Assembly: GCA_015277795.1 (NCBI GenBank)
Contig: CP063848.1
Location: forward strand, 2,232,001-2,296,000
Reading direction: 5' to 3'
From: Massilia sp. UMI-21
Lineage (GTDB): Bacteria > Pseudomonadota > Gammaproteobacteria > Burkholderiales > Burkholderiaceae_D
DNA length: 64,000 bases
The translations under genes and the position numbers were made by a program. Positions 37,006-51,851 of this stretch are shown here, piece after piece; position 1 is the first letter of the stretch, and every line of letters starts with the position of its first letter. The notes under the pieces were generated by a model. It was not told where the DNA came from. It saw nothing but the letters and a program-made list of their open reading frames with translations, and ran no database searches.

Positions 37006-37650
37006 TTAAGCTAATTTCAATCCGGAACGTGTCAATAGCAGGATCTGGTCGGCCATGGCGGCCGCGGCGTGGGAGTGGGTGACCATGATGGCGCCGGCGC
37101 CGCTCAGGCGGGTCTCGCGGCGCAGCAGGGACAGGATGCCCTGGGCGGTCTCGGGATCGAGGTTGCCGGTCGGTTCGTCGGCCAGCAGCAGGGCGGGGCG
37201 GTGCACCAGGGCCCGCGCGATCGCCACCCGCTGCAGTTCGCCGCCGGAGAGCTGGCGCGGGAAATCATTGCCGCGCCCGCCGAGGCCGACGGCGTCCAGC
37301 ATCTCGTCGGCGCGGGTATCGGGGCTGCGGTTGAGCAGCAGCGGCAGCGCCACGTTCTGGCGCAGCGTCAGGTGCGGCAGCACGTGGAAGGCCTGGAAGA
37401 TGAAGCCCATGCGGGTGCGGCGCAGGCGCGTGGCGGCCGTGTCGTCGAGGGTCGACATCGGCGTGCCGTCCACGATCACCTGGCCGCCGTCCGGCGTGTC
37501 CAGGCCGGCGATGATGTTCAGCAAGGTCGACTTGCCGACCCCCGACTCGCCCATGATGGCGACGAATTCGCCGGCGCGGAAGCTGTGCGACAGCCCGGAC
37601 AGGACGCTGCGCCCGCCGTAGGTCTTGGTCAGGTTGTCGAGGACGAGCAT
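37006..37650 (-). CDS. ABC transporter ATPase, LolD/MacB-like (orphan)
   Basis: 214 residues with all ABC motifs: Walker A GESGVGKSTLLN, Q-loop FIFQAFHVLPHLT, signature LSGGELQRVAIARAL, Walker B LLLADEPTGNLDPET, H-loop VTHSHAAA. The TGNLDPET phrase and overall length place it with the LolD/FtsE/MacB group, which works with FtsX-type permeases; none is present here. It is the last gene of the selenate-type ABC operon, 54 bp after the second permease, with AAGGAAACC before the ATG. It may serve another permease or be a second ATPase for this operon. Confidence 0.88.
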   Translation of the reverse strand: MLVLDNLTKTYGGRSVLSGLSHSFRAGEFVAIMGESGVGKSTLLNIIAGLDTPDGGQVIVDGTPMSTLDDTAATRLRRTRMGFIFQAFHVLPHLTLRQNVALPLLLNRSPDTRADEMLDAVGLGGRGNDFPRQLSGGELQRVAIARALVHRPALLLADEPTGNLDPETAQGILSLLRRETRLSGAGAIMVTHSHAAAAMADQILLLTRSGLKLA

Positions 37651-37704
37651 GGTTTCCTTTGGCGGCCGGTTATCTGATCTTCAGCGTGGTCTTGGGCGGG
37701 GTCT

Positions 37705-38505
37705 TCAGCGGGTCAGTACGCGGCGCAGCGCGAAGCTGAGCGCGTCCACCGCCGCCACCAGCAGCAGCATCGCGATCACGACCGTGGCCGCGCGCTGCAT
37801 CTGGAACAGCGACAGATGGTATTTCAGCATCTGGCCGAGGCCGCCGGCGCCCACCACGCCCAGCACAGCGGCGGCGCGGATGTTGTTCTCCCAGCGGTAC
37901 AGGGTATAAGACAGCATTTGCGGCAGGGCCTGCGGCAAGGTCGCGTACAGGAAGGCCGCCAAGGGCGCGGCGCCGTTGGTGCGCAGGCTCGCTTCCGGCA
38001 GCGGCTCGACGTTTTCCAGGGCATCGGCGAACAGGCGGCCCAGCACCCCGCTGGTGTGCGCGGCCAGCGCCAGGGTGCCGGCGAACGGACCGAGGCCGGC
38101 CGCGACCAGCAGCAGCGCGGCCCATACCAGTTCCGGAATCGAGCGCAGGACGTTCAGCACGATGCGGACCGCGCCGCGCAGGACCGCGCCCAGGCGCCCG
38201 GCCGCCGGCAGCGCCAGCGCCATGCCGCCGGCCACCGCGAGCAGGGTCCCCACCAGCGACATGGCCAGGGTCTCCCACAGGGCGACGAAGGTTTTCGACA
38301 GGAAGGCCGGACCGGTCTCGGGCGGCGTGAAGCCGGCCAGGAATTCGGTCATCGAGCTCACCGCCTCGGGCGTGAAGAAGGCGGCCCACTGCAGCGGCAG
38401 CGAGGCGAAGCTGGCCGCCACCAGCACCAGCAGCGCGCCCAGCAGCACCAGGGTGCCGGTGGCGCGCGGCGGCGGCGGCGGCAGCGAAGACGGCGCCGGC
38501 TTCAT
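37705..38505 (-). CDS. ABC permease, PhnE-like (second of pair)
   Basis: 266 residues with about six membrane helices and the permease EAA-type loop ending (LRTNGAAPLAAFLYATLPQA, then LYRWENNIRAAAVLGVVGAG). It is a PhnE-family inner-membrane permease for oxyanions such as phosphonate, phosphite or, here, probably selenium oxyanions. The N-terminus is Pro-rich (PAPSSLPPPPPRATG). It overlaps the first permease by 4 bp (ATGA), so the two are probably made as a heterodimer. Confidence 0.88.
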   Translation of the reverse strand: MKPAPSSLPPPPPRATGTLVLLGALLVLVAASFASLPLQWAAFFTPEAVSSMTEFLAGFTPPETGPAFLSKTFVALWETLAMSLVGTLLAVAGGMALALPAAGRLGAVLRGAVRIVLNVLRSIPELVWAALLLVAAGLGPFAGTLALAAHTSGVLGRLFADALENVEPLPEASLRTNGAAPLAAFLYATLPQALPQMLSYTLYRWENNIRAAAVLGVVGAGGLGQMLKYHLSLFQMQRAATVVIAMLLLVAAVDALSFALRRVLTR

Positions 38506-39326
38506 CCCAGCCTCCGGCGCAGCAGTTTCGAGACCAGGTCGGCCAGCGCCACCAGCAGCACGAACACGATCAGGATGGTGGATACCTCGCCGCCCGCCAT
38601 CATGCGGGTGGACTCCTCCATGCGCTGGCCGAGGCCGCCGGCGCCCACGAAGCCCATCACCGCCGAGCCGCGGATCGCGCACTCCCAGCGGTAGACGGTG
38701 TAGGACACCAGTTCGGCGCTGGATTCGGGCAGGGCGCCGTACAGCAGGGCCGGCAGGCGCCCGCTGCCGTTGGCCAGCAGCGACTCGAGCGCGTGCGCGC
38801 TCGAGGACTCCAGGATTTCGGCGTACACCTTGGCCAGCATGCCGGAATAGGTCAGGGCGATCGCCAGCACGCCGGCGGTGGGGCCCAGCCCGACGATGCG
38901 CACGAACAGCAGCGCCCACACCAGTTCCGGGACGCTGCGCAGCAGCACCAGCACCCAGCGCAGCAGTTGGCGCGCCAGGGCGGCAACCGGGCGCATGCGC
39001 CCGGTGCCGAGGCGCGAGATCGACAGCCGCTCGCTGATGAGCATGGTGGCGGGAACGGCGCCCAGCAGCGCCAGGCTCAGGCCGGCGGTGGCGATCGCCA
39101 CCGTCTGCCAGGTCTCGCGCAGCACCAGCGCCAGGAATTCGGCCCCGAACTCGGGGCGCAGGAAGTCGGACAGGAACATCGCCGCCGCCGACAGGCTTTG
39201 CGGGTCGAACAGCAGCCAGGGCTTGAATTCGCTCGCCGTCAGCATCGGCCACAGCAGCAGCAGGCAGACCAGCGTGGCGCCGACTCGGCCGCGCCAGGCC
39301 GGATCGGGATGCAGCGCGCGGGTCAT
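38502..39326 (-). CDS. ABC permease, PhnE-like (first of pair)
   Basis: 274 residues; PhnE-family permease with helices such as GATLVCLLLLWPMLTA and WVLVLLRSVPELVWALLFV and the conserved cytoplasmic loop with YTVYRWECAIRGSAVMGFVG. Its stop overlaps the second permease start by 4 bp and its own start overlaps the ATPase stop by 1 bp. This tight packing indicates one transporter. See the binding protein for the proposed substrate. Confidence 0.88.
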   Translation of the reverse strand: MTRALHPDPAWRGRVGATLVCLLLLWPMLTASEFKPWLLFDPQSLSAAAMFLSDFLRPEFGAEFLALVLRETWQTVAIATAGLSLALLGAVPATMLISERLSISRLGTGRMRPVAALARQLLRWVLVLLRSVPELVWALLFVRIVGLGPTAGVLAIALTYSGMLAKVYAEILESSSAHALESLLANGSGRLPALLYGALPESSAELVSYTVYRWECAIRGSAVMGFVGAGGLGQRMEESTRMMAGGEVSTILIVFVLLVALADLVSKLLRRRLG

Positions 39327-40144
39327 CAGAAGCAGGCGCCGACGGCGATGCGGTCGGGCGATTCGTGCGGAGGCCGCGAAGCGGATTGCACCGCGTCGTT
39401 CTCGTACAGGGCCGCGATCATGGCGTCGCTGACCGCGCCGGTCGGGGCGTCGAACACGATGCGTCCGGCGCGCAGGCCGACCAGGCGCGGAAAGTGGGCG
39501 CGCGCCATCTCGACCTGGTGCAGGCTGCACACCAGGGCGGCATTGCGGCTGCCCGCCTCCTGCTGCAGGGTGGCCAGGGTATGCCGGGCCAGCGCCGGGT
39601 CGAGCGCGGAGATCGGTTCGTCGACCAGCAGGGCTTCGGCGCTGGAGAGCAGCAGGCGCGCCAGGCCGCAGCGCTGGCGCTCGCCGCCGGACAGGCGGTC
39701 GACGCGCGCATACAGCTTGTCGCCCAGGCCGAAGCGCGCCAGGGCGGCGTGCGCGGCATCCGGGTCGCTCGGGCGCACCAGCGAGGCGAAGGCCTGCCAC
39801 AGGCTCATGTGGGGCAGGCGCGCGGCCAGCACCGCGGTCACCACGCGCTGGCGCGGCGGCAGCGGCGGCGTCTGCGGCGCCAGGAACAGGCGCGCGCGCA
39901 GCCGGTGGCGGGCCGCCTGCGGCAAGGCCCACGGGTCTTGCCCGAAGACCGAAAAATCGCCCTGGGCCGGACGGTGGGCACAGGCGAGGGTGGCGAGCAG
40001 GGTGGTCTTGCCGGCGCCCGAGGGGCCGATCAGGGCCAGCTGCTCGCCGGGTGCGACGACCAGGTCGAGGGCGGAGAGGGCGGGCGCGGTGTCGCGCGCC
40101 GCCGCCAGATGCCGTACCGTCAGTTTCTCGAGGCGAAAAGTCAT
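39326..40144 (-). CDS. ABC ATPase, PhnC-like
   Basis: 272 residues: Walker A GPSGAGKTTLLATL, signature LSGGERQRCGLARLL, Walker B ALLVDEPISALDP, H-loop CSLHQVEMARAHFPRLVGLR. It is of the PhnC type that energises oxyanion import with the adjacent permease pair. C-terminal extension of about 30 residues (SASRPPHESPDRIAVGACF) is unusual and probably disordered. Start ATG 40144 is 20 bp after the binding-protein stop. Confidence 0.88.
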   Translation of the reverse strand: MTFRLEKLTVRHLAAARDTAPALSALDLVVAPGEQLALIGPSGAGKTTLLATLACAHRPAQGDFSVFGQDPWALPQAARHRLRARLFLAPQTPPLPPRQRVVTAVLAARLPHMSLWQAFASLVRPSDPDAAHAALARFGLGDKLYARVDRLSGGERQRCGLARLLLSSAEALLVDEPISALDPALARHTLATLQQEAGSRNAALVCSLHQVEMARAHFPRLVGLRAGRIVFDAPTGAVSDAMIAALYENDAVQSASRPPHESPDRIAVGACF

Positions 40145-40164
40145 CGCGTCCGCTGCCCTCTTGA

Positions 40165-41052
40165 CTACTTCAGCAGGCCGGCATTGCGCGCCGCCGCTTC
40201 GATGGCGCGGTAGTTCGCCGCCTTGGTCGGGATGAACTTGGTGGCGCGCTGCAGTTCCAGGATCTGCTTGCCTTCCGGGGTGGACGGGTCCAGCGCCAGG
40301 AAAGCGTCGGTGATTTTCTTCTGCAGGGCCGGGTTCATGTCGCTGCGCACGGTCCAGTTGTAGTCGTAGTAGCCCGGCGTGGTGTAGAACACCCGCACCA
40401 CCTTCGGATCCACCTTCTTGGCCTCGATCAGCTTGTCCCACACCGAGATGTTGAGGGCGCCGGCATCGACCTTGCCGCCCGCGACCGCGGCCACGGTGGC
40501 GTCATGCGCGCCCGAGAAGGCGATGCGCTTGAGATCGGTATCCGGGTCAATCTTGGCCGCCAGCAGGTAGGAGCGCGGCATCAGGTGGCCCGAGGTCGAG
40601 GATTCCGAACCGAAGGACAGGGTCTTGCCCTTCAGGTCTTCCAGCTTGTTGATCGACGGGTTGGTGGTGATGAACACCGAGCGGAACTTCTCGTCCTCGG
40701 CGCGCTGCACCAGCGGGGTCACCTGGCCCTTGCTGCGTACGTCCGCCTGCACGAAGGTGAAGCCGCCGAACCAGACCATGTCGATCTTGCGGTTGATCAG
40801 GCCTTCGACCGAGGCCGCGTAGTCGGTCACCGGGGTGAACTCGACCTTCAGGCCGGTCGCCTTGGCCAGGTAGTCGCCCAGCGGCTTGAACTTGCGCTGC
40901 AGTTCGGTCGGGGCTTCGTCGGGAATTGCCGAGACGCGCAGCACGCCGGGGGTATTCTGGGCAGCGGCGCCGCCGGCAGCGAACATCAGGCCGGCCGACA
41001 AGGTGGCAGCGAACATGGTTTTCAACATACGCGAAGGCGAGAACAGGGTCAT
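40165..41052 (-). CDS. Periplasmic binding protein, putative selenate type (PhnD family)
   Basis: 295 residues: signal peptide (LKTMFAATLSAGLMFAAGGA), then a PhnD-type oxyanion-binding fold: LRVSAIPDEAPTELQRKFKP, TPVTDYAASVEGLINRKIDM, WFGGFTFVQADVRSKGQVTP, SFGSESSTSGHLMPRSYLL. The IPDEAPTEL and WFGGFTFVQA phrases recall the branch named 'putative selenate ABC transporter binding protein', defined from its co-occurrence with selD; selD is 6.9 kb away here. Phosphite or phosphonate remains possible without a ligand assay. It leads the operon and is divergent from egtD. Confidence 0.85.
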   Translation of the reverse strand: MTLFSPSRMLKTMFAATLSAGLMFAAGGAAAQNTPGVLRVSAIPDEAPTELQRKFKPLGDYLAKATGLKVEFTPVTDYAASVEGLINRKIDMVWFGGFTFVQADVRSKGQVTPLVQRAEDEKFRSVFITTNPSINKLEDLKGKTLSFGSESSTSGHLMPRSYLLAAKIDPDTDLKRIAFSGAHDATVAAVAGGKVDAGALNISVWDKLIEAKKVDPKVVRVFYTTPGYYDYNWTVRSDMNPALQKKITDAFLALDPSTPEGKQILELQRATKFIPTKAANYRAIEAAARNAGLLK

Positions 41053-41262
41053 GGCGTCTTTCTTGTTAGTGACTGGAGTTAAATAGCGGAAACAAAGCGG
41101 ACACGCTGAACCGGGGTCGTCGTGCCCGCACGCCAGGCGGAAACGGCAAATGGCCGAATTCCGCTATGATGGCAAAAACGGCAACTCAGGTCCGGTCGAT
41201 CAGGTCCGGGAATACAAGCTTGGCAACCAAGCCAGGCCGCACGGCGCGGCGTGGCGGCACGA

Positions 41263-42246
41263 ATGATAACGCTTATGCACATCTCCTGCACGGAAGACCG
41301 CCCGCGCGCCGTCAACGCCCATGTGGCGGACGAACTGCACACGGGGCTCCAGGCGCAAGACGCCTGGATCTCACCGAAGTTCCTGTACGACGCGCTCGGC
41401 TCCCGGCTGTTCGAAGCCATCTGCGAGCTGCCCGAGTACTATCCGACGCGCACCGAGGCGGCCATCTTCGCGCGCCACGGCGCCGAGATCGCGCGCGTGG
41501 CCGGCAGCGGCACCACCCTGGTCGACCTGGGTGCGGGCAACTGCGCCAAGGCTGCTGCGCTGTTCCCCTTGCTGGCCCCCGCCCAGTACGTGGCGGTCGA
41601 CATCTCGGCCGAGTTCCTGTACGAGGCGCTCGAGCGCCTGCGCCTGCGCTTCCCGCACATCGACATGGAAGCGCTGGGCATGGACTTTTCCAGCCGCTTC
41701 GAGCTGCCGCCCCGGGTACGGGCCGAGCGCCGCCTGTTCTTCTATCCCGGCTCATCGATCGGCAACTTCACGCCGGACGAGGCCGGCGCCTTCCTGCAGC
41801 GCCTGCGCGCCCAGTGCGGGCCCGACGGCGGCGTGCTGATCGGCGTCGACCTGGCCAAGGACAAGGCCACCCTCGATGCCGCCTACGACGACGCGCTCGG
41901 CGTCACCGCCGCCTTCAACCTGAACCTGCTGCGCCACGTGAACCACCTGGTCGATGCCGATTTCGACATCCGCGCCTGGCGCCACCACGGTTTCTACAAC
42001 CCGGAACGCGGCCGCGTCGAGATGCACCTGGAAGCGGTGCGCCGCCAGGAGGTGCACTGGCGTTGCGGCGAGCAGGCCTGTTCGCGCGTGTTCGAGCCGG
42101 GCGATCGCATCCACACCGAGAACAGCTACAAGTACCAGCAGGCCGATGCCATCGCGCTGCTGGAGCGTTCCGGGTTCGAGGCCACGCGCGTGTGGACCGA
42201 CCCGCAGCGCTGGTTCGCGGTGATCCACGCACAGGCGGTCGGCTGA
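41263..42246 (+). CDS. egtD: L-histidine N(alpha)-methyltransferase (hercynine synthase)
   Basis: About 327 residues. FLYDALGSRLFEAICELPEY and YPTRTEAAIF at the N-terminus, SAM motif TTLVDLGAGNCAKAAALFP, FFYPGSSIGNFTPDEAGAFL and HTENSYKYQQADAIALLE are EgtD signatures. It trimethylates histidine to hercynine, the common precursor of ergothioneine and selenoneine, in the cytoplasm. The ATG at 41263 follows GGCGG; GTG 41251 and ATG 41275 are alternatives. Its stop overlaps the egtB start (TGATG-type, 1 bp), so the two enzymes are coupled. Divergent from the selenate-type ABC operon. Confidence 0.95.
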   Translation: MITLMHISCTEDRPRAVNAHVADELHTGLQAQDAWISPKFLYDALGSRLFEAICELPEYYPTRTEAAIFARHGAEIARVAGSGTTLVDLGAGNCAKAAALFPLLAPAQYVAVDISAEFLYEALERLRLRFPHIDMEALGMDFSSRFELPPRVRAERRLFFYPGSSIGNFTPDEAGAFLQRLRAQCGPDGGVLIGVDLAKDKATLDAAYDDALGVTAAFNLNLLRHVNHLVDADFDIRAWRHHGFYNPERGRVEMHLEAVRRQEVHWRCGEQACSRVFEPGDRIHTENSYKYQQADAIALLERSGFEATRVWTDPQRWFAVIHAQAVG

Positions 42247-43487
42247 TGGGCATCGGGCAGCGCGAAGACCTCCTGCATGCCTACGACCGGGTACGCCGGC
42301 GCTCGCTCGAGATCGCCGCGCCCTTGTCGAGCGAGGATTGCTGTGCCCAGTCGATGCCCGACGCCAGTCCGGTCAAGTGGCACCTGGCGCACACCACCTG
42401 GTTCTTCGAGACCTTCATCCTCGAGGCGCATGAGGCAGGCTTCAGTCCTTTCCACCCGGCTTTCCGGATGCTGTTCAATTCCTACTACAACGGCATTGGC
42501 GCCAAGCATCCGCGTCCCCAGCGCGGCCTGCTCACCCGCCCGTCGCTCGACGACGTGCTGGCCTACCGCGCGGACGTCGACCGCCGCATCGCCCGCCTGC
42601 TGGCGGCCGGCGCCGAAGCTGCCGTGGCCGGCCTGCTGGAGCTGGGCCTGCAGCACGAGCAGCAGCACCAGGAACTGATGCTGACCGACGTCAAGCACCT
42701 GCTGGCCCAGAATTCCCTGTACCCGGCCTATGCGCCGCAAGCGATGGACGCGGGGGTGGCGCCGGAGCCGGCCGCATGGATCGCGTTCGACGGCGGCCTG
42801 GCCGAAATCGGCTACGACGGCAGCGGCTTTTGCTTCGACAACGAGTTGCCGCGCCACCGTACCTACGTCGCCCCCTTCGAACTGGCCTCGCGCCTGGTCA
42901 CCAACGGCGAGTACCTGGAATTCATCGACGCGGGCGGCTACCGCGACCCGGCGCTGTGGCTGGCCGAGGGCTGGGACCGCGTGTGCAGCGGCGAGATCAC
43001 GCATCCGCTGTACTGGATCGCCGGCGAAGGCGGCGCCTGGCGCGAATTCACGCTGCACGGCGTACAGGCGCTCGACCTGGCGCGTCCGGTCACCCACGTC
43101 TCGCTGTACGAAGCGGACGCGTATGCGCGCTGGCGCGCCACCCGCCAGCCCGGCCTGCGCCTGCCGACCGAGGCCGAGTGGGAGTTCGCCGCGCGCCAGG
43201 CGACGCTGGCCGGCGGCGCCCTGCATCCGGCCGCAGCCGACGGCGAGGGCCTGCTGCAGATGTTCGGGGCCTGCTGGCAGTGGACTAGCAGCAGCTACGC
43301 GCCTTACCCCGGCTATGCGCCCGCCGCGGGCGCCATCGGCGAGTACAACGGCAAGTTCATGGTCAACCAGTACGTGCTGCGCGGTTCATCCTGCGCCACG
43401 CCCGAGGGCCATGCGCGCGCCAGCTACCGCAACTTCTTTCCGTCCGGGGCGCGCTGGCAGTTCACCGGGATCAGGCTGGCGCGATGA
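42246..43487 (+). CDS. egtB: EgtB-family iron-dependent sulfoxide (or selenoxide) synthase
   Basis: 413 residues: an N-terminal DinB-like domain with the iron-site motifs VKWHLAHTTWFFETF and LGLQHEQQHQELMLTDVKHL, then a formylglycine-generating-enzyme-type domain ending ASYRNFFPSGARWQFTGIRL. It is of the EgtB subgroup commonly paired with EgtD. The reaction joins a thiol (gamma-glutamylcysteine or cysteine) to hercynine. The related SenA enzyme uses a selenosugar instead; a SenB-type gene is 6.5 kb away, so either donor is possible and cannot be settled by eye. It overlaps YihY by 4 bp. Confidence 0.9.
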   Translation: MGIGQREDLLHAYDRVRRRSLEIAAPLSSEDCCAQSMPDASPVKWHLAHTTWFFETFILEAHEAGFSPFHPAFRMLFNSYYNGIGAKHPRPQRGLLTRPSLDDVLAYRADVDRRIARLLAAGAEAAVAGLLELGLQHEQQHQELMLTDVKHLLAQNSLYPAYAPQAMDAGVAPEPAAWIAFDGGLAEIGYDGSGFCFDNELPRHRTYVAPFELASRLVTNGEYLEFIDAGGYRDPALWLAEGWDRVCSGEITHPLYWIAGEGGAWREFTLHGVQALDLARPVTHVSLYEADAYARWRATRQPGLRLPTEAEWEFAARQATLAGGALHPAAADGEGLLQMFGACWQWTSSSYAPYPGYAPAAGAIGEYNGKFMVNQYVLRGSSCATPEGHARASYRNFFPSGARWQFTGIRLAR

Positions 43488-44419
43488 GTCGTCGCAGGAG
43501 CTGGCGCGAGCGCCTGCTGGACCAGCGCGCGAACGCCTGGATCCTGGCCCATCCGCTGGCCTTCTTCCTGCAGGTGATCCGGGCGTTCCGTGCCAACCAG
43601 GGCCTGTTGCTGGCGGGCGCGGTCGCCTACTACGCGCTGCTGTCGATCGTGCCTTTCCTGATGCTGGTGGTGGTGGCGCTGTCGCACTTCATTGACCAGG
43701 CCGAACTGCTCGACACCCTGCAGCGCTATATCGGGCTACTGGTGCCGGGACAGACCCAGCCGATCGTGGCCGAGGTGGCGCATTTCCTCGAGAACCGCGA
43801 GCTGATCACCTGGCTGCTGGCGGTCACGATGCTGTTTTTCAGTTCGCTGGCCTTCACGGTGCTGGAGAACGCGATGAGCGTGATCTTCGTGCACCGGGTA
43901 GCGGTGCGGCGCCGCCATTTCCTGGTGTCGGCGGTGCTTCCGTACTGCTACATCCTGGCGCTGGGACTGGGGGTCATGATCGTGACCCTGGTGGCGGGCA
44001 CGCTGGAAGTGCTGGGCCGCGAAAGCGTCTGGCTGTTCGGCTACCAGTGGTCGCTGGGCGGCGTGTCCGGCGCGCTGCTCTACCTGCTCGGGCTGTGCGG
44101 CGAGATCCTGGTGCTGACCTCGATCTACCTGGTGATGCCGGTCGGGCGCCTGTCGCTGTGGCACGCGCTGGTCGGCGGCATCAGCGCGGCGCTGCTATGG
44201 GAGATGGCGCGCCATGTGCTGGTCTGGTACTTCTCGACCCTGTCGCAGGTGAACGTCGTCTATGGTTCGATGACGACCGCAATCGTGGTGATGTTCAGCC
44301 TCGAGATCGCTGCCACGCTGCTGCTGCTGGGCGCCCAGGTGATCGCCGAATACGAGCGCGTCGGGCATGGCCTGACCGAGCGGCCGGCCGAGCCGCTGCA
44401 CACGGATCCGCCGGCCTGA
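43484..44419 (+). CDS. YihY/BrkB-family inner-membrane protein
   Basis: 311 residues with six hydrophobic segments (LLAGAVAYYALLSIVPFLML, WLLAVTMLFFSSLAFTVLEN, YCYILALGLGVMIVTLVAGT and others) and the family phrase VNVVYGSMTTAIVVMFSLEI. YihY/BrkB proteins are inner-membrane proteins of uncertain transport role. Its start overlaps the egtB stop (ATGA), so it is translated with the ergothioneine-type genes; a role in export of the product is speculation. The IS element lies 45 bp after its stop. Confidence 0.88.
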   Translation: MSRRRSWRERLLDQRANAWILAHPLAFFLQVIRAFRANQGLLLAGAVAYYALLSIVPFLMLVVVALSHFIDQAELLDTLQRYIGLLVPGQTQPIVAEVAHFLENRELITWLLAVTMLFFSSLAFTVLENAMSVIFVHRVAVRRRHFLVSAVLPYCYILALGLGVMIVTLVAGTLEVLGRESVWLFGYQWSLGGVSGALLYLLGLCGEILVLTSIYLVMPVGRLSLWHALVGGISAALLWEMARHVLVWYFSTLSQVNVVYGSMTTAIVVMFSLEIAATLLLLGAQVIAEYERVGHGLTERPAEPLHTDPPA

Positions 44420-44456
44420 CCAAGCGGGTACGAAAACGTCGGTAGGAAAGCGCCGG

Positions 44457-44464
44457 TAGGAAAA
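44457..44464. repeat. Target-site duplication, left copy
   Basis: TAGGAAAA, identical to 45534-45541, directly flanks the left end of the IS element. Eight bases is the usual duplication length of the IS1595 family. Confidence 0.9.
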
Positions 44465-45533
44465 GGCGCTGTTACCTTTATCTATTGATGACCCCGATTG
44501 CGATGCGTAAGAACTGTTCCGCAGCAATTACCTGCGCGCGGTCGAGCACCCGGTGCCAGCCGAGGTAATTCGGCAGGTAGCGCGATGCCACGCCGCGAAA
44601 GCGGGCCAGCCAGTCGCGCAGACGCTGATGGAAAGCGTTGACGTTCTGGACGTGGAGGGCGTTGCCAGCGTCACGGCGCACGCGCACGCCGGCGCGCAAG
44701 TTCACCGCCTGGTGGGCGATCCCATGTTTGCGTGAAAACGCCCGGTAGGCAGCGTTGGCGTCGCTGACCAGGAGTGCTTGCCGGTCGAGCCTGGGCAGCA
44801 GGTGGCGTTCCAGGTGCGCCGTCTTCAAGGCCCCGCGCCCGACCAATGCGCCGATGGTCTGCCTGGCGCGGTCGCGTGCCACCAGGATGCAGTCGAGCTC
44901 GTTCGAGATGCCGCGTTTGCGCGCCGCGCCGCCACGCTTTCTCGGCGCCCGGTCCAGCTTGCGCGCGCCCTTTTGCGATTCCAGGATGAACATTTCATCG
45001 GCCTCGACGATGCCGCTCAGTTGCTCTGGTTGGTCGTGCTTGACCCGGTCGACGAAGCGGTGGCGCCAGCGAAACGCGGTGTTGCGATGCACGCCGACAT
45101 CAAGGGCGGCGCGGCGCACCGATTTGGCCCCGATCAATGCGTCCAGGTAGTCGAGCCATTTTTCGCGCAGCCGCAGCCGCGCAAAAGGCGTGCCGCTCAG
45201 GTCGTTGAAGCTGCGGCCGCATTCCCGGCAGCGGTAGCGCTGCAGGCCATTGGCATGGCCGTGCCGGTAGCAGCGCGTGCAGGCGCAGCGCGGACACGCG
45301 CGTTGGGGTGCGCGGATCTGCTCGATGAGGGCGACGATCCGGTCCAGCCCTGCGGCCGGATGCAATGCCGCCAGTGTTTGTTGGCGCTGCGCCCCGTTCA
45401 GCGCGGGCAGCCGCGCGAACCACTTCCTGAAGCTGGGTGTTTTCACGGCCGCTTCCTGTCGATGGAGACAGGTGTTCGACCAGGGAGATGCTCAGCAGTT
45501 CAGCCCTCATCCATAGTTAACGCTGACAGAGCC
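44465..45533 (-). mobile_element. Complete IS1595-family insertion sequence
   Basis: 1069 bp with terminal inverted repeats: the left end begins GGCGCTGTTACCTTTATCTAT, and the right end, read inward, GGCTCTGTCAGCGTTAACTA, matching at about three quarters of positions. Perfect 8-bp duplications TAGGAAAA flank both ends. It carries one intact transposase gene. The intact frame and perfect duplication indicate a recent, probably still functional insertion, located between yihY and the DUF2589 operon without breaking a recognisable gene. Confidence 0.92.
44478..45446 (-). CDS. IS1595-family transposase
   Basis: 322 residues: an N-terminal zinc ribbon (CPRCACTRCYRHG and YRCRECGRSFNDLSGTPF), helix-turn-helix (SVRRAALDVGVHRNTAFRWR), then the DDE-type catalytic domain (GIVEADEMFILESQKG, LVSDANAAYRAFSRKHG, and NVNAFHQRLRDWLARFRGVA with the characteristic N/H/K region). 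The layout and the ISXO2-like catalytic domain identify the IS1595 family. It fills almost all of the element and is uninterrupted. Confidence 0.93.
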   Translation of the reverse strand: MKTPSFRKWFARLPALNGAQRQQTLAALHPAAGLDRIVALIEQIRAPQRACPRCACTRCYRHGHANGLQRYRCRECGRSFNDLSGTPFARLRLREKWLDYLDALIGAKSVRRAALDVGVHRNTAFRWRHRFVDRVKHDQPEQLSGIVEADEMFILESQKGARKLDRAPRKRGGAARKRGISNELDCILVARDRARQTIGALVGRGALKTAHLERHLLPRLDRQALLVSDANAAYRAFSRKHGIAHQAVNLRAGVRVRRDAGNALHVQNVNAFHQRLRDWLARFRGVASRYLPNYLGWHRVLDRAQVIAAEQFLRIAIGVINR

Positions 45534-45541
45534 TAGGAAAA
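45534..45541. repeat. Target-site duplication, right copy
   Basis: TAGGAAAA, identical to 44457-44464, immediately after the right inverted repeat. Confidence 0.9.
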
Positions 45542-45666
45542 TGCTGGTACCGTTCCGTACTTGCGGTTTGTCAATTTATATCTGGAAAGCAATGGCACAG
45601 TAAGGTCTTGCGCAGACGTTTGGGCTAGCTCAATCGGGTGCGAGAACAAACTTATTGGGAGATGCC

Positions 45667-45912
45667 ATGAGCCAAACTGTCGCCCTCGTCCTTCCCCTGC
45701 CGGTCGCGCTGGCGCTGGTCGTCGTGCTGCTCGTGCTGCTGGCGCTGAGCGCGGTCGCACTGTCCTTGCGCAAACAGGCGCAGGTCCGGGCTCCGGCCGG
45801 CGCTGGCGGCGAGGTGGCCGCCTGGACCCCTGAAGCCGAGGGCTTCCGCCTCGGCCACCTGCACATCGACGGCCTGGCCGAGCTGTCCGGCCCGCAGCGC
45901 CGCCTGCGCTGA
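45667..45912 (+). CDS. Small single-span membrane protein heading DUF2589 operon
   Basis: 81 residues: one long hydrophobic helix near the N-terminus (VALVLPLPVALALVVVLLVL), a basic segment, then a polar tail (TPEAEGFRLGHLHIDGLAEL). GGGAG lies 6 nt before the ATG. It is 18 bp upstream of the first DUF2589-like gene and probably opens a four-gene operon. It could be a membrane anchor for the soluble proteins that follow; this is inference. Confidence 0.7.
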   Translation: MSQTVALVLPLPVALALVVVLLVLLALSAVALSLRKQAQVRAPAGAGGEVAAWTPEAEGFRLGHLHIDGLAELSGPQRRLR

Positions 45913-45930
45913 TCCTGGAGGAACCGACCC

Positions 45931-46440
45931 ATGTCGATCAAGCTGGGCGGCCTGCTGGCCGGCGTCAAGCGCGCGGTCGTCGACGCGCACCGCAGCGTCT
46001 CCGAGCAGCACATGGAGGAACTGGCGCAGTACTTCGTGCCCGCGCCGGGGCAGAAGGCCGACCTGCAATTCCCCGACGGCCAATGGGAGGCGCGCAGCGT
46101 CGTCATGCAGGTCCCGCACGAGGCCAGCCGCAACGGCAAGGTGTCGATCGAGCGGCGCGACGTGCATGTTCCCCTGATTACCCTGCTGCCGCTGCGTAGC
46201 CACGTGATCGAGCGCGTCGAGCTCCTGACCACGCTCGACTTTTCGCTGGCGCCGCCACTGTCCGACGCCGAGGCGCGCGGCGAGGCCGACCTGCCGCCCG
46301 ACATCACCGTCAAGCTCGGCCACAAGGGGCCGCATAGCGCCGAAGTGAAGATCGTCGTGCATGCCGCCGACCTGCCGCCGGGCTACGCCCGCCTGGTCGG
46401 CGCCTACGAAAAAGTCCTGAACGCGCAGCTTCCCACCTGA
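45931..46440 (+). CDS. DUF2589-like protein A
   Basis: 169 residues, soluble. N-terminus SIKLGGLLAGVKRAVVDAHR with a helical start, then a mainly beta region with VHVPLITLLPLRSHVIERVE, the 'VPLxTLxP...I..V' phrase typical of DUF2589 proteins. No signal peptide or catalytic motif. Paired with a second, longer DUF2589 protein 65 bp downstream, suggesting that the two form hetero-oligomers. Function of the family is unknown. The assignment to the family rests on phrase similarity and is moderate. Confidence 0.7.
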   Translation: MSIKLGGLLAGVKRAVVDAHRSVSEQHMEELAQYFVPAPGQKADLQFPDGQWEARSVVMQVPHEASRNGKVSIERRDVHVPLITLLPLRSHVIERVELLTTLDFSLAPPLSDAEARGEADLPPDITVKLGHKGPHSAEVKIVVHAADLPPGYARLVGAYEKVLNAQLPT

Positions 46441-46505
46441 GGGCGCGCCCCGGCTTCCACCCCGCGGGATGCTGCATCCCGCATCCAACCCAGAAGGAGA
46501 AGAGA

Positions 46506-47207
46506 ATGGCAGACAGCATCGATGGCGGCCTGGTAAGCATGGCCCAGCAGTTCTCCGGCTTGCCGATGGACTCGCTGATCGGCGGCCCGCTGCAGGCGGC
46601 GGCCAGTGCCCAGCAGGGCCTGGCGATGACCCAGACCCAGTACATCCTGAACACCGGCTTCAACCAGACCAAGGACGCCAACGGCCAGATCACCTACACC
46701 CCGATCACCGCCAGCATCGCCATGGGCCAGAGCCAGCCGGTGATCGCGGCCGACGGCAAGGTGAGCACGGCCGATTCGCACCTGAACGTCGATTTCCCGA
46801 TCATCACCATGGTGCCGATCCCCTCGCTGGCGGTGACCTCGGTCGACATCGCCTTCGACATGGAGGTCAAGTCGAGCTACACCCACGAGACCGATGCCGA
46901 AACCTCGTCCAAGACCCAGGAACAGGGCTCCTTCGACGCCAAGGCGGGCTGGGGCTGCTTCTCGGTCGAGGTCAAGGGCTCGGTCTCGCACGACTCCTCG
47001 CAGTCGAATTCGGACAAGCAGACCTACCAGAAGAGCAACGATGCCAAGTACCACGTCGAGGTGAAGGCCGAACAGCAGCCGATCCCGGAAGGCATCAAGA
47101 TGCTGCTCAAGATGTTCGGCGATAACATGACCATGAAGCCGATCATGGCCGGCGGGCAGCCCCAGCAGCAAAACACGCAGCAATCGATCCCTGCGCCGCA
47201 CGCATAA
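46506..47207 (+). CDS. DUF2589 protein B
   Basis: 233 residues. QQFSGLPMDSLIGGPLQAAA at the N-terminus, then LNVDFPIITMVPIPSLAVTS and VDIAFDMEVKSSYTHETDAE are clear DUF2589 signatures. A Ser/Asp/Lys-rich stretch (SVSHDSSQSNSDKQTYQKSN) and a Gln-rich C-terminal tail follow (PQQQNTQQS). Good Shine-Dalgarno sequence (AGAAGGAGAAGAGA). No signal peptide, so cytoplasmic or exported by another route. It lies between protein A and a DUF1906 gene in the same orientation. Function is unknown. Confidence 0.8.
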   Translation: MADSIDGGLVSMAQQFSGLPMDSLIGGPLQAAASAQQGLAMTQTQYILNTGFNQTKDANGQITYTPITASIAMGQSQPVIAADGKVSTADSHLNVDFPIITMVPIPSLAVTSVDIAFDMEVKSSYTHETDAETSSKTQEQGSFDAKAGWGCFSVEVKGSVSHDSSQSNSDKQTYQKSNDAKYHVEVKAEQQPIPEGIKMLLKMFGDNMTMKPIMAGGQPQQQNTQQSIPAPHA

Positions 47208-47240
47208 ACCGGCATCGATCGTCATCGAGGGAGGGGAGAG

Positions 47241-47876
47241 ATGGCCACGCCAACGAGCGCACAGACAGGCTTCGACACCGCGCTGCAACTGACCCGCCAT
47301 GCGCAGGCCTTGCGCGCGCAGGGGATCGATTTCGTGATGCGCTACTACAGCCACAATACGGCGAAGAACCTGGGACCGGTCGAAGCGCGGGCCCTGGCGG
47401 CGGCCGGACTGCGCCTGGGGGCGGTCTGGGAAAGCGCCGGCACCCACGCCGGCTACTTCAGCCGCGCCCAGGGCCAGGCCGACGGCGCCGGTGCGCTGGC
47501 GCTGGCGCGCGCGGTCGGGCAGCCGGCCGGGTCGAGCATTTATTTCGCGGTCGACTACGACCCGTCCCAGGCCGACCTCGACGGTCCGGTGGCCGATTAC
47601 TTCGCCGGGGTCACCTCGGCCCTGGGCTGCGGCTACCGCATCGGCGTCTACGGATCGGGCATGTGCTGCGGCTACCTGCTCGAGCGCGGGCAGGCCGACT
47701 GCACCTGGCTGTCGCAATCGACCGGCTTCGCCGGATCGAAAGCCTTTGCCCAGGCCCTGCGCTACGACCTGATCCAGGCGCTGCCGAAAACCATCGCGCT
47801 GGACGGCTGCACGCTGGATGTCGATCCCGACAGCACCAATCCGGCCGGCGATCCCGGGCTGTTCCAGCCGGGCTGA
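47241..47876 (+). CDS. DUF1906 glycoside-hydrolase-like protein
   Basis: 211 residues with the DUF1906 (Rv2525c-like, GH25-like TIM barrel) pattern: GFDTALQLT, GIDFVMRYYSHNTAKNLGPV, LGAVWESAGTHAGYFSRAQG, SIYFAVDYDPSQADLDGPVA, IGVYGSGMCCGYLLERG, and DGCTLDVDPDS at the end. Acidic residues are present at the mouth positions expected for a lysozyme-like barrel. Unlike actinobacterial relatives it has no Tat or Sec signal, which suggests cytoplasmic use or release by lysis or a dedicated system. Last gene of the DUF2589 operon; convergent with selD. Confidence 0.82.
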   Translation: MATPTSAQTGFDTALQLTRHAQALRAQGIDFVMRYYSHNTAKNLGPVEARALAAAGLRLGAVWESAGTHAGYFSRAQGQADGAGALALARAVGQPAGSSIYFAVDYDPSQADLDGPVADYFAGVTSALGCGYRIGVYGSGMCCGYLLERGQADCTWLSQSTGFAGSKAFAQALRYDLIQALPKTIALDGCTLDVDPDSTNPAGDPGLFQPG

Positions 47877-47880
47877 CACC

Positions 47881-47897
47881 GCTGGCGGGCCGCCAGC
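47881..47897. terminator. Terminator-like hairpin between convergent operons
   Basis: Stem GCTGGCG/CGCCAGC (7 bp) with loop GGC, between the DUF1906 stop (47876) and the selD stop (47928). No T run. Confidence 0.4.
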
Positions 47898-47927
47898 CGG
47901 CACTCAAGCGACAGGTTCTGCCGAACT

Positions 47928-48983
47928 TCAGCCGACCTTCACGCCGGGCGCGCCCGCTTCCATGCGCCCGATCACCGCCGCCTCGCCGAAGCCTTCGCGG
48001 GCGAACAGCCCCAGCACCTCGTCCACGCTCGCCGGGTCGCACGAGACCAGCAGGCCGCCGGAGGTCTGCGGGTCGGTCAGCAGGGCGCGCTGGGCCGGTG
48101 TGATGGCGGCGCCCAGTGCCACCTCCTGGCCGTAGGCGTCCCAGTTGCGCCCGGAGGCGCCGGTGAAGAAGCCGTCCTGCGCCAGTTGCAGCACGCCCGG
48201 CAGCAGCGGCACCTTGTCCATCTCGAGCGTGGCCGTCAGGCGCGCGCCGCGCGCCAGTTCCAGCAGGTGGCCGAGCAGGCCGAAGCCGGTAACGTCGGTC
48301 AGCGCATGCACGCCCGGCATTTCGGCCAGCAGGCGTCCCGGCTTGTTCAGCTTGGTGGTGTTGGCGATCATCGCCGCATAGCCTTCCTCGCCCAGCGCAT
48401 CCTTCTTCAGCGCCGCCGACAGCACGCCCACGCCGAGCGGCTTGCCGAGCACCAGCAGGTCGCCGGCGCGGGCGTCCGCATTGCGCTTGACCTTCGACGG
48501 ATGCACCAGGCCCATCACCACCAGGCCGTAGATCGGCTCGACCGAATCGATGGTATGACCGCCGGCGATCGGAATGCCGGCGTCGGCGCACACGGATTCG
48601 CCGCCGCGGATGATCTGGCCGATGGTCTCGAGCGGCAGCTTGTTGACCGGCATGCCGACCAGGGCCAGTGCCATGATCGGCGTGCCGCCCATCGCATACA
48701 CGTCCGAGATCGCATTGGTGGCGGCGATGCGGCCGAAGTCGAAGGGGTCGTCGACGATCGGCATGAAGAAGTCGGTGGTGGCGATCAGGGCCTGCTCGTC
48801 GTTGAGCTTGTAGACGGCGGCGTCGTCGGCGGTCTCGATGCCGACCATCAGCTCTTTCGGCACCGGGAAGCCGGTCGACTTGTTCAGGATTTCGGCCAGC
48901 ACCCCCGGCGCGATCTTGCAGCCGCAGCCGCCGCCGTGCGAGAACGAGGTGAGTTTGATGGGTTGGTCGTTCGTCGTGCTCAT
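47928..48983 (-). CDS. selD: Selenide, water dikinase (selenophosphate synthase)
   Basis: 351 residues: KLTSFSHGGGCGCKIAPGVL with the catalytic Cys20 and Lys23 (Cys, not selenocysteine), DDAAVYKLNDEQALIATTDF, DPFDFGRIAATNAISDVYAM, GGTPIMALALVGMP, GGHTIDSVEPIYGLVVMG and the C-terminal DPQTSGGLLVS. It makes selenophosphate from selenide and ATP. It is 12 bp downstream of a SenB-type gene on the same strand, which puts it in the role called SenC in selenoneine clusters. No selA, selB or mnmH is in the window. Confidence 0.96.
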   Translation of the reverse strand: MSTTNDQPIKLTSFSHGGGCGCKIAPGVLAEILNKSTGFPVPKELMVGIETADDAAVYKLNDEQALIATTDFFMPIVDDPFDFGRIAATNAISDVYAMGGTPIMALALVGMPVNKLPLETIGQIIRGGESVCADAGIPIAGGHTIDSVEPIYGLVVMGLVHPSKVKRNADARAGDLLVLGKPLGVGVLSAALKKDALGEEGYAAMIANTTKLNKPGRLLAEMPGVHALTDVTGFGLLGHLLELARGARLTATLEMDKVPLLPGVLQLAQDGFFTGASGRNWDAYGQEVALGAAITPAQRALLTDPQTSGGLLVSCDPASVDEVLGLFAREGFGEAAVIGRMEAGAPGVKVG

Positions 48984-48995
48984 CGATAGGTTCCT

Positions 48996-49982
48996 TCAGT
49001 GTCGGGCCGCGCGGGGCGCGGAAAGAAAAAGATTATCCACCATGTCGCGCAGCGCCGCTTGCTCCACGCTTGGGGCGAACAGGGCGGCGCGGGCCGCGCA
49101 CTGGCGCCGCAGCAGGTCGTCGAAGGCGGCGTCGCCGATCATCCGGTCGATCAGCCGGGCCAGCGCGGCGGCGTCGCCCGCGGGAAAGTAGCCGGCGTAG
49201 TCCTCGCCCAGCATGCCGCGGTTGCCGCCGATATCGGATGCCAGCACCGGCACGCCGCTGGTAACCGCTTCGATGATGACGTTGGCGCCGCCCTCCATGC
49301 GCGAGGTGATCGCCATCGCGCGGCAACGCTTGAGGCGCTGGCGCGCGGCCGCGTGGGGCAGGGCGCCGAGCCAGCGGTAGCGCGGATTGGCCGCCTGCGC
49401 TTGCATCGCGGCCTGGCCCAGCATGGGATCGAGCGCGCCGCCGATGTGCAGCAGCCGCGCCGCAGGGTGGGTGACCAGGGCGGCGGCGTGGAGGTAGGTG
49501 AGCGGGTCTTTCTCGTCGCGCAGGTGGCCGATCATGCAGATGTCGGCATGGCGCGGCGCCGCCCCGCGGACGTGGGCGCGCAGGCTGGGGGCCGACTGGT
49601 AGATGACGCGCGCCTTCGGGTGCAGCCGCGGCGGCAGCAGGGCCAGGCCGGCCGGCTGCAGCAGCACCAGCGCATCGGCGCGCTCGAGCGAGGCACGCGC
49701 CTGCGGGTCCTTGGCGATGTCGCGATAGAGGTCGGTGCCGGTCAGGACCAGCACCGATGGCCGGTCGGGATGGGCGTGCGTGAATGCGGCAAGCGCGGCC
49801 GCCGAGCGGCGCGCATGCAGGGCGATCATGAGGTCCGGCGCCTGGTCCGGGCGCGTCCAGTCGCCCGCCACGTCCACGCGATAAGCGCTGCGCAAGAAGC
49901 GCGCCCAGCGGCTCGCGGTTTGCCAGTTGCCGTTGTTCTCGCGGGCGGTGGCGGGGCTGACGATGAGGATGTGCTTGCGCAC
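48996..49982 (-). CDS. senB: SenB-type glycosyltransferase (probable selenosugar synthase)
   Basis: 328 residues, family-1 GT-B fold: KHILIVSPATARENNGNWQT, LMIALHARRSAAALAAF, SVLVLTGTDLYRDIAKDPQA, VIYQSAPSLRAH, and the C-terminal EGGANVIIEAVTSGVPVLAS with the E-x7-E donor-site motif. These phrases match the glycosyltransferase branch found next to selD, characterised in other bacteria as SenB, which uses selenophosphate and a UDP-sugar to form a C-Se bond. GTG start at 49982 with GGAG 8 nt upstream; the longer frame lacks similarity. It overlaps nothing and precedes selD by 12 bp. Identification is by eye. Confidence 0.88.
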   Translation of the reverse strand: MRKHILIVSPATARENNGNWQTASRWARFLRSAYRVDVAGDWTRPDQAPDLMIALHARRSAAALAAFTHAHPDRPSVLVLTGTDLYRDIAKDPQARASLERADALVLLQPAGLALLPPRLHPKARVIYQSAPSLRAHVRGAAPRHADICMIGHLRDEKDPLTYLHAAALVTHPAARLLHIGGALDPMLGQAAMQAQAANPRYRWLGALPHAAARQRLKRCRAMAITSRMEGGANVIIEAVTSGVPVLASDIGGNRGMLGEDYAGYFPAGDAAALARLIDRMIGDAAFDDLLRRQCAARAALFAPSVEQAALRDMVDNLFLSAPRAARH

Positions 49983-50044
49983 CGGCGGGTCTCCAGAAAA
50001 CGCTGGCCTGCGATTATAGCCGGGGCTGTGCGCTCCCGGCAGAC

Positions 50045-50074: not shown

Positions 50075-50483
50075 CTTCATGGTGCGCCCAGCATGGGCGC
50101 ACTCCTGCGGGTGAAAGTCCTGCCGCGAGCTGACCACAGTGAGCGAAGTGAAGCGCAACTGCATGAGGGTAACCGAGTGTGGGAAGGAAGCGTGGATCGT
50201 AAATCATGAGCCGAGGAACACGAATCGCATAGAAGGCGTTGCCGATCAGGGCGAGCGGGCCATGAACCGCAAAGCTCTTGTGGTCAAGGAGAGGTGGCGT
50301 AGATGCGGCGGTTGTGTGATGAAGGAGTGCGGCCCTTACCTGGGGACGCCCCGCCTTGTGCCTGAAAGGGCGACGAAAAAAAAATCGGAGCGGGGTCTCA
50401 GCAGAGGTCATAGTAGTTGGAGGTAGCGCTGGGAAGGCTCGACTCCGCCGACGAAGGACCGAACGAGTAGGAGTGAATCCGAT

Positions 50484-51851
50484 ATGTCGATGCAGAAGGC
50501 ACAGCGTCAGATGCCCGCAAACGCGGGGCGGGAAGCCGTAGGGCAAGGTGAAGCCATGCTCGATGCTTTCAGCGACGAAGCGTTCTGCCCGCGGCATGCA
50601 ACCGGAGGCACGGGGTCAGCGTTGCTGCAAGCGGCGCTGACGACAGAGAACCTGCGGCGGGCGTTCAAGCGTGTGCGTGCCAACAAGGGAGCGGCTGGCG
50701 TGGATGGACTGGACATTGACCAGACCTCGCGTCTGCTGGCAACCGAGTGGCCTCACATACGAGAACAACTGTTGGCAGGGACGTACCGGCCCAGTCCGGT
50801 ACGTCGGGTGACGATTCCGAAGCCCGACGGTGGCGAGCGCGAGCTTGGCATCCCGACGGTGACGGATCGGCTGATCCAGCAAGCACTATTACAGGTGGTG
50901 CAACCGATCCTTGATCCCACTTTCAGCGAGCATAGCTACGGCTTCCGACCGGGCAGGCGTGCGCAGGATGCGGTATTAGCCGCTCAGGCATACGTCCAGT
51001 CCGGGCTGAGAATCGTGGTGGACGTGGACCTGTCGAAGTTCTTCGACCGGGTCAACCATGACATCCTGATCGACCGCTTGAAGAAACGCATCGACGACGC
51101 TGGAGTGATCCGGCTGGTCCGTGCCTATCTGAACAGCGGCATCATGGAGCATGGTGTAGTACAGGAACGGAACGAAGGAACGCCGCAAGGCGGTCCATTG
51201 AGTCCGCTGCTTGCCAACGTCATGCTCGATGAAGTGGACAAGGAACTGGAACGGCGCGGCCATCGCTTTGCGCGCTACGCCGACGACGCGAACGTCTATG
51301 TTCGTAGCGTGCGTGCGGGCCAGCGGGTGATGAGGCTGCTGCGGCGCTGCTATGCCAGACTGCACCTCGTGGTCAACGAAGGCAAGAGCGCCGTGGCCAG
51401 CGTCTTTGGCCGCAAGTTCCTCGGCTACAGCCTGTGGGTGGGGCGTGGGGGCGAAGTCAAACGCAAGGTGGCGGAAAAGCCGTTGCAAGCGTTTAAACAA
51501 CGCATCAGGGAGCTAACCCGCCGATCTGGTGGGCGTAGCATGCCGGATGTGGTGCAGGGACTTCGTTCCTATATGCTGGGTTGGAAAGGGTACTTCCAGT
51601 TGGCGCAAACCCCAAAGGTATGGCGCGGACTCGATGAATGGTTGCGGCACAGGCTGCGGGCTATCCAGCTCAAGCACTGGAAGCGCGGAAGCACCATGTA
51701 TCGGGAGCTCCTTAAACTTGGGGCTTGGCCGTCGGCAGCGAGGCACGTAGCGGCGAACAGCCGCCGCTGGTGGCACAACAGCGATAGGTTACTCAAAACA
51801 GTGATGACTATCGGCTATTTCGACCGACTCGGTGTACCTCGCCTGTCTTGA
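50484..51851 (+). CDS. ltrA: Group II intron reverse transcriptase/maturase
   Basis: 455 residues. RT motifs: VRANKGAAGVDGLDIDQTSR, RRVTIPKPDGGERELGIPTV, FSEHSYGFRPGRRAQDAV, VDVDLSKFFDRVNHDILIDR, GTPQGGPLSPLLANVMLDEV, and the catalytic YADD in FARYADDANVYVRS (about 265). A maturase (X) domain follows (WKGYFQLAQTPKVWRGLDEW). There is no recognisable C-terminal HNH endonuclease, consistent with introns that use nascent DNA targets. Frame is intact, so splicing and mobility are possible. It lies inside intron domain IV. Confidence 0.93.
   Translation: MSMQKAQRQMPANAGREAVGQGEAMLDAFSDEAFCPRHATGGTGSALLQAALTTENLRRAFKRVRANKGAAGVDGLDIDQTSRLLATEWPHIREQLLAGTYRPSPVRRVTIPKPDGGERELGIPTVTDRLIQQALLQVVQPILDPTFSEHSYGFRPGRRAQDAVLAAQAYVQSGLRIVVDVDLSKFFDRVNHDILIDRLKKRIDDAGVIRLVRAYLNSGIMEHGVVQERNEGTPQGGPLSPLLANVMLDEVDKELERRGHRFARYADDANVYVRSVRAGQRVMRLLRRCYARLHLVVNEGKSAVASVFGRKFLGYSLWVGRGGEVKRKVAEKPLQAFKQRIRELTRRSGGRSMPDVVQGLRSYMLGWKGYFQLAQTPKVWRGLDEWLRHRLRAIQLKHWKRGSTMYRELLKLGAWPSAARHVAANSRRWWHNSDRLLKTVMTIGYFDRLGVPRLS

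Follow-up and report, generated by a model that had tools for sequence, protein, structure and literature searches.

The arrangement of genes around selD in Massilia sp. UMI-21 is very likely that of a locus for selenoneine and ergothioneine from which a single gene, senA, has been displaced. The locus lies in a stretch of 64,000 nucleotides (contig CP063848.1, positions 2,232,001 to 2,296,000; hereafter the window) and brings together an egtD-egtB pair, a senB-selD pair and a putative selenate transporter (Table 1), while senA is found 1.71 Mb from senB, outside the cluster. A senABC cluster for selenoneine was reportedly found in Variovorax paradoxus by Kayrouz in 2022. The window shares with that cluster adjacent genes for SenB and SelD (also called SenC), and the genome encodes a SenA of the same family, but senA is not in the cluster, and egtD-egtB and a TIGR04553 transporter lie close by. 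According to published reports, SelD/SenC makes selenophosphate, SenB makes a selenosugar, and SenA joins the selenosugar to hercynine (PMC9814287; PMC10891094, PMC10702425). The three genes were described as one cluster, discovered by looking beside selD (PMC9814287). In the species group studied herein, the genes for the selenosugar are retained even where the last sen gene has moved off or is lacking. The pathway and its families are already known; a senA that is scattered and repeatedly missing beside a conserved senB-selD pair appears to be a variant not yet described. No description of a dispersed senA was found in the literature searched, the original sen paper lying outside that search, and no paper in that literature combined any two of senABC, selenoneine and Massilia.

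Genes were identified by their scores against the cut-offs of curated NCBIfam models. The initial annotation of the window, made from its letters, had placed the open reading frames (ORFs) correctly, and the families it proposed, including a SenB-type protein, EgtD, EgtB and a binding protein of the putative selenate kind, score above those cut-offs (Table 1). Its suggestion that the local EgtB performs the SenA step was not supported, and the local EgtB was rejected as SenA by its scores against models and solved structures alike. On the SenA model (NF041186) this protein scores 391.4 bits, under the cut-off of 420, versus 555.7 on the EgtB model, and it matches solved EgtB (8qf6, 6qki and 6o6l) at 445 bits versus 98 bits for solved SenA (8ryz). 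Its nearest solved relatives are EgtB (Cabther) and these same three structures. An EgtB of this type would use cysteine. The search for senA elsewhere, which the initial annotation had proposed, returned a single protein above the SenA cut-off in the genome (5.30 Mb, one contig), encoded at C1:565047-566201. It scores 507.5 bits on NF041186 and resembles solved SenA (8ryz and 8k5i, 296 bits) more closely than EgtB (165 bits). The gene shares its strand with a ttcA-like ORF, 46 bp behind which it lies, and is followed by a folB-like ORF (names assigned by eye, that of ttcA being backed by a PP-loop domain). A second senABC cluster was not found, the genus searches giving one SenB and one SelD for this genome. 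MnmH/SelU is encoded at C1:2776298, so SelD also has a use in tRNA modification.

SenB of the window aligns with solved SenB (8k5u, 8jjn, 8jjq and 8fbx) at 283-290 bits. The catalytic residues named in two reports, K158, R155, N20/T23 and E231 (PMC10891094, PMC10702425), are conserved in it, as judged from an alignment to 8k5u with the numbering transferred by hand count. Across the genus, the motif R..K is present in 45 of 45 SenB proteins, NNGN..T in 42 and EGG..V..EA in 43; the exceptions are two genomes with incomplete genes (G035 and G038), two in which S replaces T (G004 and G042) and one with EAG for EGG (G045). SenB of the genus reads EGGANV where the published motif is EGGAHV (PMC10891094).

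The genus draw comprised 61 genomes, which were searched for six proteins. Matches above cut-off were obtained for SenB in 43, SenA in 37, TIGR04553 in 35, EgtB in 60, and SelD and MnmH in 59 each, the genomes without a SelD or MnmH match all being under 88% complete; of the genes of the locus, four genomes hold selD and egtB alone. In the part of the genus neighbourhoods mapped for gene order, a block recurs in the order helicase, senB, selD, variable gap, brkB, egtB, egtD, [transporter], ABC (ATP-binding cassette) ATPase, which argues that the arrangement is not due to chance. Among the 43 SenB-positive genomes, with adjacency read from coordinates by eye, senA adjoins senB in 21, is split from it in 13 (the window genome included) and is absent from nine. 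In all 21 genomes of the adjacent class, senA is divergent from senB and TIGR04553 is missing; the helicase stands on the far side of senA in eight of nine mapped compact loci, the ninth being cut short. Three more genomes have a partial SenB, namely G025 (fragmented, 84% complete) and G035, both with senA elsewhere, and G038, with no senA. The transporter is carried by all 25 split, SenA-less or partial-SenB genomes (13 + 9 + 3). Within the genus, the cassette is present in 35 of the 61 genomes and never accompanies a local senA; an exclusion rule drawn from this was rejected, as related genera have both.

Some of these loci are incomplete or damaged. In G006 (83% complete), senA stands beside a senB truncated by a contig end. 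The senB of G035 is in two pieces on two contigs (L097 and L098), one at a contig end and the other continuing into low-complexity sequence and genes of no relation to the locus, which probably reflects a misassembly. G038 (L096) shows apparent damage in senB, in one permease and at the start of egtB; either the entire locus is decaying, or the sequence contains errors.

Outside the genus, the compact state prevails. A family draw of 245 genomes contained SenB in 88, of which 74 lie outside the genus, and senA is directly beside senB in 71 of these 74 (70 by coordinates, read by eye, and G151 by inspection). The others are G064, in which egtD lies between senB and the gene for a SenA-like protein of 411.9 bits, just under the cut-off (L215), and G182 and G243, both of one other genus, which are split and encode two SenA proteins each above cut-off, none near senB. 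Two candidates for a SenA-less state outside the genus were withdrawn: G064, for the protein just described, and G151, whose locus L216 has SenA beside senB (521.8 bits in two stretches, missed by a strict E-value filter). As far as these draws go, split loci are concentrated in this genus, and SenA-less ones even more so. An observation of another kind is that 29 genomes of the family draw outside the genus, many of one genus and at 448-477 bits, have a protein above the SenA cut-off and no SenB match; either the SenA model admits a sister group of EgtB, or these are orphan SenA proteins with another donor.

Among loci of named relatives (80 kept of 98), those of Duganella, Janthinobacterium fluminis, Massilia glaciei and Massilia sp. 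CF038 unite the binding protein with senA, senB-selD and egtB-egtD, and all six genes (senA, senB, selD, egtB, egtD and the binding-protein gene) occur together in L145, L146, L147, L149, L153, L171, L173 and L219. The window has the same genes in the same order as the compact locus of Duganella, J. fluminis and M. glaciei, minus senA, which in theirs is kept divergent from senB. The initial annotation had taken the co-location of transporter, EgtD and SenB/SelD as the oddity of the window, along with its split by an insertion sequence (IS) and an unrelated operon; other genera have the same genes plus senA, and the oddity is the missing neighbour. Judged from these gene orders, the co-location of transporter, egt and sen genes is itself older.

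The absence of senA from nine genomes is real. All nine are listed as 100% complete, and a relaxed search of them and of G038 (E up to 1e-5) returned their own EgtB alone (143-175 bits), save for a 44-bit partial match in G017. Moreover, both flanks of the senA gene of G027 are found in its sister G003, where a 200-bp gap replaces 1.36 kb. The difference between G003 and G027 may be either a loss in the former or a gain in the latter. Between helicase and senB in genomes without a local senA, no convincing senA remnant was found (best E 0.006).

Where senA is dispersed (15 genomes), it occupies nine or ten neighbourhoods, depending on how two sites flanking one ABC gene are counted; L115 and L121 share an SbmA/BacA-like ABC transporter gene as the neighbour of senA, on opposite sides. 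All 15 dispersed proteins retain HExMHxEA, and 14 of the 15 retain GHxAWF (GHTIWF in G007). In the SenA tree, twelve dispersed copies form one group (support 89) beside compact Massilia copies, whereas those of G005, G021 and G035 cluster with two split copies, one from G182 and one from G243 (support 95). The first SenA tree held 36 of 37 proteins, G021 falling under the score filter and being included in a second tree; the SenB tree held 43 of 45 extracted proteins (46 matches, that of G025 not fetched). Order inside the twelve-copy group disagrees with the locus tree, with modest supports. Transfer of senA between lineages is accordingly likely. On the locus tree, which is midpoint-rooted and covers 41 of the 61 genomes (the others were not fetched or had no usable SelD, EgtB or EgtD), Fitch counts were 10 changes for senA, three for senB and three for the cassette, although the tree draws on the very genes of the locus and support falls below 60% at several nodes, a weakness that tells against our reading of the locus together with the points on the transporter given below.

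What senB does where senA is absent can be approached through omega, calculated for chosen pairs (22 for SenB, by NG86, and 12 for SenA); the EgtB value of the pair G009/G053 came from a wrong gene and was set aside. For SenB, it is 0.205-0.343 in five SenA-less pairs, 0.163-0.428 in six compact, 0.273-0.447 in five split and 0.194-0.364 in six mixed pairs; SenA gives values of 0.225-0.350 for eight dispersed pairs and of 0.088-0.363 for four compact ones. The most telling pair is that of the sisters G010 and G019, both without senA, whose SenB omega is 0.205, although they may have lost senA separately after their split. SenB motifs in SenA-less genomes are kept in 10 of 10 (R..K and EGG..V..EA) or eight of 10 (NNGN..T, which is missing from the broken gene of G038 and carries S for T in G004). 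A SenB that looks so constrained suggests that the selenosugar serves some purpose besides selenoneine in these genomes. Tentatively, and with less than even confidence by a good margin, the selenosugar of SenA-less Massilia could be an end product, or the substrate of an unknown enzyme, in a second small-molecule selenium pathway, one independent of SenA. If that were true, selenoneine would be an optional branch that a mobile senA toggles as it is gained or lost; the SenA-less species are natural test cases for such a role of the selenosugar. Quite plausible, if somewhat short of probable, is that senA was lost only recently from these genomes, leaving behind a senB that is itself disappearing. 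The 10 senA changes on the 41-genome tree imply that many absences are young, senB is broken in G038, and SenB omega exceeds SelD omega in 22 of 22 pairs, so that SenB looks the looser gene in every class. On the contrary, SenB is above cut-off in nine of the 10 SenA-less genomes that have any senB, and the value for G010/G019 falls within the range of senA-bearing pairs (0.163-0.447). It is highly improbable that the local EgtB makes selenoneine from the SenB selenosugar and also replaces SenA where the latter is missing. EgtB does come near the SenA cut-off, at 391 bits here and 404-409 in three other genomes among the matches listed, and SenA-less genomes offer no other SenA-like protein save the partial match in G017. 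Nonetheless, the local protein is far closer to solved EgtB than to solved SenA, a true SenA occurs in the same genome, and the EgtB proteins of SenA-less G003 and SenA-bearing G027 share 95% identity, so that the former bears no mark of change.

The role of the transporter is the other point on which readings may differ. Behind the gene for the binding protein come those for a PhnC-like ATPase and two PhnE-like permeases, all on the minus strand. The closest solved chains of the binding protein are of the phosphonate/phosphite type (7s6g, 196 bits) and are named as binders of these compounds; the TIGR04553 model itself is graded "hypothetical equivalog"; and ten genomes of the genus have the transporter and selD without senB and senA, so that selenoneine is not the only context of the transporter. 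The solved relatives and the PhnE-like permeases would fit a carrier of phosphite, phosphonate or some other anion that is a mere neighbour, a reading we consider unlikely. The binding protein scores 406.6 bits on TIGR04553 but 166.6 on the PhnD model, below its cut-off of 261.1, and the TIGR04553 cassette adjoins sen genes in several genera: in five of five other loci tested (Duganella radicis, Ramlibacter aquaticus, Limnohabitans, Halomonas korlensis and L189), the family was confirmed at 348-402 bits, with senB at a distance of 1.2 to 8.6 kb. A predicted role as selenium importer finds its strongest support in this linkage, which also makes that role directly testable. L189 is a contig titled Akkermansia muciniphila with a Limnohabitans-like sen locus, probably misbinned. 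No binding study of TIGR04553 proteins turned up in the literature searched, and none of the papers found on TIGR04553 or a "selenate ABC transporter" was, judged by title, about selenoneine. The region marked in the initial annotation begins with the ATPase at 37006-37650. It is a separate, LolD/FtsE-like ABC ATPase: of the mapped loci, 39 include egtD, and in every one of these the ATPase is its neighbour, even in the 11 that lack the TIGR04553 cassette, which places it outside the selenate-type transporter.

Taken as a selenoneine and ergothioneine locus with senA displaced, the region would work as follows. The ABC importer would bring in a selenium oxyanion, selenate or selenite, to be reduced to selenide and converted by SelD into selenophosphate, which would also serve tRNA 2-selenouridine via MnmH/SelU. 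SenB would couple selenium to a UDP-sugar, EgtD would convert histidine into hercynine, and the local EgtB would direct hercynine and cysteine toward ergothioneine. SenA, from its distant site behind the ttcA-like gene, would join selenosugar and hercynine to give selenoneine. The pathway is thus probably complete, its last gene being unlinked. Of the route from selenium import to selenoneine in the initial annotation, the gene families stand and the local EgtB as SenA does not; selenate as substrate and selenoneine as product we infer from gene content, and joint expression of the genes and selenoneine production by the strain are likewise predictions. In the older locus, senA would have been divergent from senB; in this part of Massilia, it would have left the locus, with copies now in many places and repeated absences, while senB-selD stayed.

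Table 1. Features of the window at and around the selenoneine/ergothioneine locus (positions in the window; scores in bits)
Feature	Position	Strand	Model match and remarks
LolD/FtsE-like ABC ATPase, neighbour outside the selenate-type transporter	37006..37650	-	LolD 194, under cut-off
PhnE-like permease 2	37705..38460	-	TIGR01097 240.4, above cut-off 216.7; start unfixed, ORF list has a longer frame
PhnE-like permease 1	38502..39332	-	TIGR01097 184, under cut-off 216.7
PhnC-like ABC ATPase	39326..40144	-	TIGR02315 174, under cut-off 266; cassette order conserved
TIGR04553 putative selenate ABC transporter substrate-binding protein	40165..41052	-	406.6, cut-off 250; PF12974
egtD, histidine N-alpha-methyltransferase (hercynine)	41263..42246	+	TIGR03438 378.7, cut-off 290.9
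egtB, ergothioneine sulfoxide synthase, not SenA	42243..43487	+	TIGR03440 555.7, cut-off 360
BrkB-like membrane protein, conserved neighbour	43484..44419	+	PF03631
IS1595-type transposase	44478..45446	-	PF12762
Variable insert	45931..47876	+	DUF2589 45931-46440, DUF2589 46506-47207, Rv2525c-like 47241-47876
selD/senC, selenophosphate synthetase	47928..48983	-	NF002098 544, cut-off 299; TIGR00476 435
senB, selenosugar synthase	48996..49988	-	TIGR04348 414.8, cut-off 300
Group II intron, outer ends not set	50163..51851	+	RNA match 50163-50333, RF02001 104.6; reverse transcriptase ORF 50484-51851 (named by eye)

The senB and selD genes are separated by 12 bp on the same strand, senB being first. 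A scan for promoters and terminators gave a number of sites not above that in shuffled sequences. Between brkB and selD lie the IS1595-type transposase, two DUF2589 genes and an Rv2525c-like gene, which identifies the IS and the unrelated operon seen in the initial annotation. The transposase had no match in the other mapped neighbourhoods (tblastn, E 1e-15), and the DUF2589 pair recurs in L076 and L078, with a single DUF2589 gene in L086. The insert was considered as a defence system and dropped, its three proteins having no PADLOC match. Elsewhere, the gap between selD and brkB varies in content (for example in L074, L077, L102 and L089), holding genes for a glycosyltransferase-like protein of about 400 amino acids, a GGDEF-like protein (both labels given by eye) or the DUF2589 set. 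The group II intron of the window occupies the place of senA in relatives, with senB on one side and the DEAD helicase on the other; it lies upstream of and opposite to senB-selD, and may affect the transcription of senB.

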